This document shows positions 19,169-24,241 of a stretch of 42,922 nucleotides of DNA, one piece after another; position 1 is the stretch's first letter; the number at the start of each line of letters is the position of its first letter. The position numbers and the translations under genes are program-made. The notes under the pieces are model-generated. The model was not told the origin of the DNA. It did not search any database and worked only from the letters and a program-made list of their open reading frames with translations. This DNA is from Gammaproteobacteria bacterium. Lineage in GTDB: Bacteria > Pseudomonadota > Gammaproteobacteria > GCA-001735895. Location: positions 1 through 42,922 of the forward strand of contig JALSKD010000176.1 of NCBI GenBank assembly GCA_026989015.1, in the 5' to 3' direction.

Positions 19169-19636
19169 ATGACCGATACCCACACCGACCTCGATCAGCC
19201 CCGATACAGCATCGGCGACATCGCCGGCAAGACCGGCCTCAGCGCCGATACGCTGCGCTACTACGAAAAGATCGGGCTGCTCGTGGATGTCCCCCGCAAC
19301 ACCGGCGGGCGGCGTATGTATCGGGAACGCGATCTGTCGCGGCTGCGCTTCATCACGCGGGCTCAGAAGATGAATTTCACGCTTGCAGAGATCGGCGCGC
19401 TGTTGCAGATGCGGGAAGATCCGCAGCATGCCCGGGAAGACATCCGCCGCATGACCCGGAACAAGCTGCAGCAGGTGGAATCACACATGGAAGAACTGGG
19501 CAAGCTGCGCACCGAGCTGACGCTGCTGCTCAATCTGTGCCGCGGCGCCGAGGACGGCTGCCCCATCATCGAGGGGCTGGAAGAGCCGGTTACTGCACCC
19601 GGTAACCGTCGTGACAGGCCACGCACTGGGCGGTGA
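19169..19636 (+). CDS. MerR-family metal-responsive regulator
   Basis: The 155-residue protein has a MerR winged helix (RYSIGDIAGKTGLSADTLRYYEKIGLL), a dimerisation helix (about 85-120) and a C-terminal metal loop C124-x6-C131-P-I-I. In CueR the residue before this helix is Ser77; in MerR and ZntR a Cys sits there. Alignment of DPQHAREDIRR here puts Arg at that place, so the sensing chemistry may differ. It is the last gene of the cluster and so probably autoregulated from site 2. The last 47 bp overlap the convergent cytochrome gene, and the tail beyond residue 140 is basic and unusual. Confidence 0.88.
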   Translation: MTDTHTDLDQPRYSIGDIAGKTGLSADTLRYYEKIGLLVDVPRNTGGRRMYRERDLSRLRFITRAQKMNFTLAEIGALLQMREDPQHAREDIRRMTRNKLQQVESHMEELGKLRTELTLLLNLCRGAEDGCPIIEGLEEPVTAPGNRRDRPRTGR

Positions 19637-23542: not shown

Positions 23543-23572
23543 AAAAACCCGGGCAGTCGAACCGTCCGGGTT
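23543..23572 (-). terminator. Distal terminator-like hairpin of tRNA-linked array
   Basis: On the minus strand an imperfect ACCCGGACGG/CTGCCCGGGT stem with a TTCGA loop is followed by five Ts. It is the third in a series of near-identical hairpins and the most diverged. Confidence 0.6.
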
Positions 23573-23573
23573 C

Positions 23574-23752
23574 AATAATGGCGGAGAGCGAGGGATGACT
23601 CGGCGCTTCCCTGAGCCTCGCCCTTCGGGTTCGCTGCGCTCATGCCGCATCGCTCCCGGCGATGCGGTCAAACCCTCTGTCGGGTTCGAACCCCTCGCAA
23701 ACGATTCGTGGCGGCAACGAAAAAAACCCGGGCAGTCGAACTGTCCGGGTTC
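23574..23752 (-). repeat. tRNA-linked tandem repeat, unit 2 (179 bp, distal)
   Basis: This unit is a full copy of 23753-23931 with three differences that I could count. Read in the tRNA direction it holds a terminator-like hairpin, a T-arm-like GGGTTCGAACCC palindrome (23682-23693), an 8-bp hairpin CCGCATCG/CGATGCGG (23645-23667), and the last 18 nt of tRNA-Ser including CCA. Confidence 0.95.
23720..23751 (-). terminator. Middle terminator of tRNA-linked array
   Basis: On the minus strand the stem AACCCGGACAG/CTGCCCGGGTT has one A-C mismatch, a TTCGA loop and seven Ts. Confidence 0.75.
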
Positions 23753-23931
23753 AATAATGGCGGAGAGCGAGGGATGACTCGGCGCTTCCCTGCGCCTCGC
23801 CCTCCGGGTTCGCTGCGCTCATGCCGCATCGCTCCCGGCGATGCGGTCAAACCCTCTGTCGGGTTCGAACCCCTCGCAAACGATTCGTGGCGGCAACGAA
23901 AAAAACCCGGACAGTCGAACTGTCCGGGTTC
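23753..23931 (-). repeat. tRNA-linked tandem repeat, unit 1 (179 bp, proximal)
   Basis: This unit abuts the tRNA-Ser 3' end and is nearly identical to unit 2. The exact period is 179 bp, measured between AATAATGG at 23574, 23753 and 23932. Its distal end repeats the tRNA 3' segment (TGGCGGAGAGCGAGGGAT on plus at 23758-23775), after which it diverges from the real tRNA. Confidence 0.95.
23899..23930 (-). terminator. Proximal Rho-independent terminator of tRNA-Ser
   Basis: On the minus strand a perfect 11-bp stem AACCCGGACAG/CTGTCCGGGTT with a TTCGA loop is followed by seven Ts, starting 7 nt past the tRNA CCA. It should terminate the csrA-tRNA transcript. Confidence 0.93.
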
Positions 23932-23936
23932 AATAA

Positions 23937-24027
23937 TGGCGGAGAGCGAGGGATTCGAACCCTCGATACGCTATCAACGTATACACCCTTAGCAGGGGTG
24001 CGCCTTCAGCCACTCGGCCAGCTCTCC
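23937..24027 (-). tRNA. serV: tRNA-Ser(GCU)
   Basis: The 91-nt minus-strand RNA has the acceptor GGAGAGC paired with GCTCTCC, discriminator G and an encoded CCA (23939-23937). The anticodon loop is CTGCTAA with anticodon GCT, for AGC/AGU codons. There is a long variable arm (class II tRNA) and a T-arm CGAGGGTTCGAATCCCTCG. The gene begins 19 bp after csrA stops, so it is probably cotranscribed with csrA; the same adjacency occurs in pseudomonads. Downstream are repeats derived from its own 3' end. Confidence 0.97.
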
Positions 24028-24046: not shown

Positions 24047-24241
24047 CTAGTAGCTGTTGCCCAGGTTCTCCTGATTCTGTTCAGCCTTGATCCGTTCGTA
24101 GATTTCTTCGCGGTGCACCGCCACTTCGCGCGGGGCATTGACGCCGATACGGACCTGATTTCCCTTGACGCCCAGCACGGTCACGGTTACATCGTCACCG
24201 ATCATCAAGGTCTCACCTACTCGCCTTGTCAAAATAAGCAT
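24047..24241 (-). CDS. csrA: Carbon storage regulator CsrA/RsmA
   Basis: CsrA is a small dimeric RNA-binding protein that blocks or stabilises mRNAs at GGA motifs. The 64-residue product begins [18 protein letters not shown] and contains the RNA-binding core residues (L4, R6, and the VAVHREEIY segment with Arg near 44). The ribosome site TTGGAGAT itself contains a GGA, so autoregulation is possible. Gene order alaS-lysC-csrA-tRNA-Ser is the classical gammaproteobacterial arrangement. The 159 bp before it probably hold its own promoter; TAGAAT and TATAGA are candidate -10 elements but neither has a good -35. Confidence 0.97.

Follow-up and report, generated by a model that had tools for sequence, protein, structure and literature searches.

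Tandem tRNA-linked repeats behind csrA and tRNA-Ser(GCU) in a gammaproteobacterium, with hints of a mobile origin of the repeat core

The 42,922-nucleotide stretch of gammaproteobacterial DNA analyzed here as a whole (the window) contains, close to certainly, an array of two tandem units that belong to the tRNA-linked repeat (TLR)/RtT family and follow csrA and tRNA-Ser(GCU). The array is a new member of the family, and the design of its unit is already known from Escherichia coli. Overall, it looks like an ordinary representative of a known, poorly understood group, and the wider comparison suggests a mobile origin of its core. The explanation we favor, and hold to be rather likely, is that a core inserted in a duplicated tRNA 3′ end, that the resulting unit was duplicated in tandem, and that read-through transcription yields an RNA that could titrate CsrA.

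The order of the features on the minus strand is csrA, tRNA-Ser(GCU), unit 1, unit 2, and a third terminator copy (Table 1). Since the tRNA is encoded on the minus strand, its downstream side, where the array is located, has the lower coordinates. The 179-bp tandem units linked to tRNA-Ser, reported in the first-pass annotation, were recovered by Tandem Repeats Finder as a repeat with a period of 179, 2.3 copies and 98% matches (23543–23954). A repeat search of the window returned a pair of 179-nt copies at 98%, together with three copies of 54 nt at a spacing of exactly 179; unit 1 and unit 2 are the same at all but 3 of 179 positions. Both units carry at their 3′ end the sequence ATCCCTCGCTCTCCGCCA, identical at 18/18 positions to the last 18 nt of tRNA-Ser(GCU) including CCA, as had been claimed, and two exact 18-nt matches in register exclude chance. 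The terminator-like hairpin described for each unit is present at the unit start, and the first one passed a terminator scan (23931–23903). The T-arm-like palindrome GGGTTCGAACCC is also present, and its description can be refined: it belongs to an inverted copy, 17 nt long, of the tRNA's T-arm and acceptor strand; in unit 1, this copy is complementary at 16/17 positions (94%) to positions 23946–23962. The strong hairpin of each unit, previously given as 8 bp, comprises 9 bp here, with arms CCGCATCGC/GCGATGCGG. Rfam matches to sX4, sX11 and a plastid family over the tRNA were weak, below their own cut-offs, and were discarded. Elsewhere in the window, a 23-bp tandem repeat of 2.8 copies (19412–19473) is located within a MerR-type gene.

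Table 1. Features of the csrA–tRNA-Ser(GCU) repeat locus in the window.
Feature	Position	Strand	Evidence
csrA	24047..24241	-	Pfam PF02599, 93 bits, 64 aa; immediately upstream of tRNA, same strand
tRNA-Ser(GCU), CCA encoded	23937..24027	-	ARAGORN; Rfam RF00005
Unit 1 (179 bp)	23758..23936	-	R1 match 23758–23878, 124.2 bits (unit in R1 seed); Rfam RtT 44.2 bits
Unit 2 (179 bp)	23579..23757	-	Rfam RtT 46.2 bits at 23579–23712
Terminator-like hairpin 1, directly after tRNA	23899..23931	-	13 pairs, then T run
Terminator-like hairpin 2, after unit 1	23720..23752	-	One base off hairpin 1
Terminator-like hairpin 3, after unit 2	23543..23573	-	T run shorter
Unit 1 inverted copy of tRNA T-arm and acceptor strand (P1a/P2a), GCGAGGGGTTCGAACCC	23861..23877	-	
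Unit 1 copy of T-arm 5′ half (P2b), GGGTTTGA; core starts after final GA	23847..23854	-	
Unit 1 core, hairpins P3–P6, ends within one base	23776..23846	-	R2 match 23775–23846; family covariation
Unit 1 copy of tRNA last 18 nt including CCA	23758..23775	-	18/18 identical
Unit 2 inverted T-arm/acceptor copy	23682..23698	-	
Unit 2 copy of T-arm 5′ half, GGGTTTGA	23668..23675	-	
Unit 2 core, hairpins P3–P6	23597..23667	-	R2 match 23596–23667
Unit 2 copy of tRNA last 18 nt including CCA	23579..23596	-	18/18 identical

The gathering score of the Rfam RtT family (RF00391) is 45; unit 2 lies above it and unit 1 just below. A full-unit covariance model (R1), built from 15 seed units without any E. coli sequence, recovers 4/4 of the E. 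coli tyrT/tyrV units (1e-9 to 1e-11), and a core model (R2) matches the core of E. coli RrB (1e-14). The kinship with E. coli rtT proposed in the first-pass annotation is thus borne out. Like TLRs, the window array directly follows a tRNA encoded on its own strand, contains the copied 3′ end (18/18), and is related to E. coli TLR cores, through R1 to the tyrT units and through R2 to the rrnB core. The idea of a general process acting on many tRNAs was supported as well, but for E. coli it has been described before, under the name of the TLR family. For E. coli K-12, 22 TLRs are listed, spread over ten loci encoding tRNA or rRNA (Rudd, 1999, as cited in PMC8144298), and the 3′ end of a TLR corresponds to the last 18–19 bp of the upstream gene (PMC8144298). 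The description of TLRs in E. coli dates from 1978, their function has not been known so far, and a claim that rtT acts in the stringent response was later retracted (PMC8144298).

Related units are present at other tRNAs of the same genome, as a search suggested by the first-pass annotation revealed: the eight RtT matches comprise the two window units and others at tRNA-Ser(GGA), tRNA-Pro(CGG), tRNA-Pro(GGG), and a contig edge. Under strict filters, and with the matches inspected in part, R1 matches were obtained in 166 of 369 Gammaproteobacteria genomes, representing 132 of 272 genera. At the level of the phylum, R2 has matches in 89 of the 398 genomes, inside the class as well as outside it. 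The 114 downstream units gathered follow tRNAs of 22 anticodon types and have a period of mostly 151–191 bp, and hosts of the T-loop core pattern include Alteromonas, Rheinheimera, Endozoicomonas, Kangiella, Serratia, and Rhodanobacteraceae. The TLR family extends far beyond earlier reports, past Enterobacterales. At the tRNA-Ser(GCU) locus of the wider family, the csrA neighborhood is found in most cases, with or without the repeat.

The sister species (G001) carries one unit at its tRNA-Ser(GCU) locus. Identity between the window and this species is 100% in the tRNA, 96.7% in the unit body, 90.7% in csrA with the intergenic region, 71% in the terminator/spacer, and 51% in the downstream sequence. 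The unit body is kept far better than the spacer, which argues for constraint on the body; conversion between repeat copies is a possible alternative cause of this conservation. The presence of the unit in a close relative is at variance with a recent neutral duplication, for which the first-pass annotation had expected no related unit in such genomes. That the array arose by recent neutral slippage, or is the remnant of an attachment site of a phage or integrative element, is highly improbable. The 98% identity of the tandem units would suit slippage and the frequent use of tRNA 3′ ends as integrase targets would suit attachment, but the repeat is conserved in the sister species, and its core of about 72 nt is not derived from tRNA and recurs at unrelated sites. 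No integrase was found among the eight neighboring proteins scanned (17.8 to 28.3 kb), and the viral contigs contain no match to one T-loop core pattern. Plain slippage and phage-type attachment, both put forward earlier, are therefore not supported. Three matches were labeled “phages,” and two of these lie on Salmonella contigs measuring 49 and 501 kb.

Throughout the family, the unit consists of an inverted T-arm/acceptor copy, a short loop, the 5′ half of the T-arm ending in TTCGA, the core with hairpins P3–P6, and the tRNA sequence from nt 59/60 to CCA; in the window, the core is located right after TTGA. At least 16 of the 18 terminal nucleotides of the unit's own upstream tRNA were found at the 3′ end in 71 of the 90 R1 matches examined, mostly 18/18. 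Units usually start with an inverted copy of the T-arm and acceptor strand of their own tRNA. In 91 of 111 units, the 5′ strand paired better with the end of its own tRNA than with those of other tRNAs, with helix scores of 7.3 for the own tRNA versus 4.9 for other tRNAs and 4.9 for shuffled sequences. The inverted copy is not obligatory, since 32 of these 111 units pair weakly with the end of their own tRNA. At three tRNA-Ser(GCU) loci of relatives (L300, L307, and L319), the inverted copy extends over the complete tRNA 3′ end, with the complement of CCA (TGGCGGAGAGAGAGG), and the direct copy of the tRNA end is damaged.

The structure of the core is reflected in strong covariation, with 15 of 21 pairs changing on both sides (82 such cells versus 18.8 in shuffles). 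Of 107 cores, 102 have a GNA triloop at P5. The P3 loop region contains GGA in 119, and P6 in 121, of 125 cores, which were picked by models whose own consensus contains GGA. G-U pairs account for 12 of 2102 P3 pairs versus 23 of 1351 tRNA acceptor pairs, in a set about half of which was chosen by a G-U-free pattern, so that this scarcity does not serve to tell a DNA structure from an RNA structure.

The minimum-energy fold of the tRNA with unit 1 (23758–24027, minus strand) contains no cloverleaf, and the copied end is set against the tRNA's own 3′ end. A processing decoy, whose copied CCA end would titrate or steer the enzymes of tRNA 3′-end formation, agrees with this competition for the 5′ acceptor strand and with the exact 18-nt end retained in most units. 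However, the copied end is also explicable as a duplication remnant from insertion, and the fold leaves co-transcriptional folding and termination out of account; we consider a decoy very improbable. Alternatively, duplication of the terminator may itself be the gain, providing the tRNA operon with two or three serial terminators and making the core a passenger. This reading, which is likewise very improbable, matches the three terminator copies in the window and the position of the core between T1 and T2 at E. coli rrnB, but several units, including those at both tRNA-Pro loci of the own genome, lack a terminator-like hairpin between tRNA and core, and in the comparison with G001 no other part of the unit is conserved as poorly as the terminator/spacer.

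The core typically follows TTCGA in the T-arm copy directly. It is also found in the D-loop of 5′ copies of tRNA-Ser, always after GGTTGA or GGTCGA, in several genomes (L004 1150–1310(+), L044, L165, L209, and L230), and in tRNA copies located upstream of intact tRNAs (L017 1776–1888(-), L016 1246–1358(+), and L043 1501–1629(+)). Units of the upstream type comprise the 5′ flank and tRNA nt 1–58, the core, and a short copy of the T-arm end, followed by the intact tRNA. An inverted core with T-arm-like flanks at both sides is located beside tRNA-Phe (L048 1501–1604(-)), and in another locus (L006 1694–1794(-)) a core lies reversed within another core, flanked by short inverted repeats. Head-to-tail cores without a spacer (L145, L182, L198, L220, L231, and L238) fix the ends of the core to within one base. 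In E. coli, a core is located between T1 and T2 of rrnB, beside a copy of the 5S end, and this spacer (L287 1501–1574(+), L286) has an 80–82% match in 3562 of 5426 E. coli genomes. One genome (G284) contains letter-identical cores in a tRNA-Pro unit and in a T-loop copy of tRNA-Arg. Among 58 core sites other than T-loops, 32 have GA at the end of the left flank.

Another genome (G281) contains 78 core matches, and 19 of the 20 copies read are near-identical and located inside one miniature inverted-repeat transposable element (MITE). This TTAA-flanked MITE family (L126–L144, L328–L357) includes dozens of core-filled copies. A query consisting of the MITE flanks joined without the core identified about 40 core-less copies in the same genome, at 92–99%. 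The junctions are precise, with CCCTCTGGGA^GAGGG in empty and CCCTCTGGGA^CAAA..GAGTAC^AGGG in filled copies, the core standing after GGGA. Filled and empty versions of one site were seen for this MITE and not for the window locus. The filled and empty copies and their precise junction indicate that an unrelated site can exist with or without the core, with an exact boundary. From these comparisons of sequence, the core is likely a discrete insertable module. Filled MITE copies probably descend from a single insertion, and it is possible that the core was lost precisely rather than gained.

A Y1 transposase of the IS200/IS605-REP type was considered as the mobilizer of the core and is not supported. 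Y1 transposase (PF01797) is present in 10 of the 11 genomes tested; the 93% complete genome G333 contains 14 cores and has no PF01797 match, so the transposase does not track the core. No enzyme that would mobilize the core was found.

In our judgment, there is a somewhat better than even case that the core of rtT and other TLRs, including the rrnB T1–T2 spacer, is a miniature mobile module that enters hairpin DNA after GA, the T-loops of tRNAs and the D-loops of tRNA-Ser among others. Where the target is an essential gene for a tRNA or rRNA, that gene would be left intact, with the core between the full gene and its copied end, and the module would have been recruited as read-through RNA. It is also possible, although we doubt it, that the array is selfish DNA only, without an RNA function: a mobile core would tolerate tRNA 3′ ends via the copied end, and its structure would serve mobility. 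The near-identical dispersed copies, the empty MITE sites, the nested and head-to-tail cores, and the prevalence of the GNA triloop at P5 fit this possibility, as does the finding that a recognizable repeat occurs at the tRNA-Ser(GCU) locus in a minority of the relatives examined. The conservation of the unit body relative to its own spacer in G001 speaks against it, with the reservation that conversion could mimic this pattern, and so does the known member in E. coli, which yields an RNA binding CsrA and Hfq.

That member, RrB, is made by read-through of T1, giving short-lived RNAs of 173 and 115 nt; it binds Hfq and, in vitro, CsrA, the latter binding being lost when the GGA sites are changed (PMC8144298). 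RrA, RrB, and RrF are all read-through transcripts processed to discrete RNAs, and deletion of rrA, B, and F in E. coli has modest effects only (PMC8144298). Both window units contain GGA in hairpin loops (CGGGA in P3 and CAGGGA in P6). By analogy with the E. coli RNAs, formation of a stable RNA from a window unit is plausible, and its GGA loops could bind CsrA as RrB does in vitro. Read-through may be rare, because the first terminator looks strong. A CsrA match is present in 83 of 89 core-positive versus 137 of 309 core-negative genomes, an association that is strong but confounded by phylogeny. Six core-positive genomes have no CsrA match, one of them being listed as complete, and GGA loops are absent in the E. 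coli tyrT units and several relatives. Genome G048, listed as 100% complete, has a core match at 4e-12 and no CsrA match.

In the favored scenario of core insertion, tandem duplication, and CsrA titration, the core would have inserted behind the GA of the T-loop in a duplicated tRNA 3′ end, the real tRNA staying intact, and the whole unit would then have been duplicated in tandem. RNA polymerase passing the first terminator would transcribe the repeat, and the copied tRNA end may be cut like a tRNA 3′ end; for E. coli RrB, cleavage by RNase E at the copied 5S end has been proposed (PMC8144298). The freed RNA of about 180 nt would expose the GGA hairpin loops as candidate CsrA sites, so that a slight titration of CsrA would be coupled to transcription of the tRNA.

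With TLRs occurring far beyond Enterobacterales, carrying a tailored tRNA-end copy, and sharing a core for which precise empty sites exist elsewhere, what was a curiosity of E. coli becomes accessible to testing. The questions are what moves the core, why it occurs in tRNA loops, and whether the products link transcription of tRNA and rRNA to CsrA. An origin is also offered for the DNA between rrnB T1 and T2, which is present in many cloning vectors. In the TLR literature found, we met neither the insertion-site view, nor the tailored inverted T-arm, nor the spread outside Enterobacterales.

Like the E. coli TLRs, including RrA, RrB, and RrF, the window array is located directly 3′ of a stable-RNA gene and ends in a copy of the last nucleotides of that gene (18–19 nt in the E. 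coli TLRs, 18 nt in the window), but it belongs to another host lineage and another tRNA. E. coli tyrT rtT likewise has a period of about 178, a copied tRNA end, and P1–P6 in the same order, whereas its P3 and P6 lack GGA loops. MITEs and REP/BIME elements resemble the TLR core in being short, structured, non-coding, and dispersed; one core family rides inside a MITE, and a link between an rtT-like sequence and BIMEs has been published. Unlike these elements, the core has no terminal inverted repeats of its own and no target duplication that could be seen. With RNAs of the CsrB/CsrC type, the window units share GGA motifs in hairpin loops, but they are part of a tRNA operon, contain two or three GGA loops per unit, and are predicted to bind CsrA.
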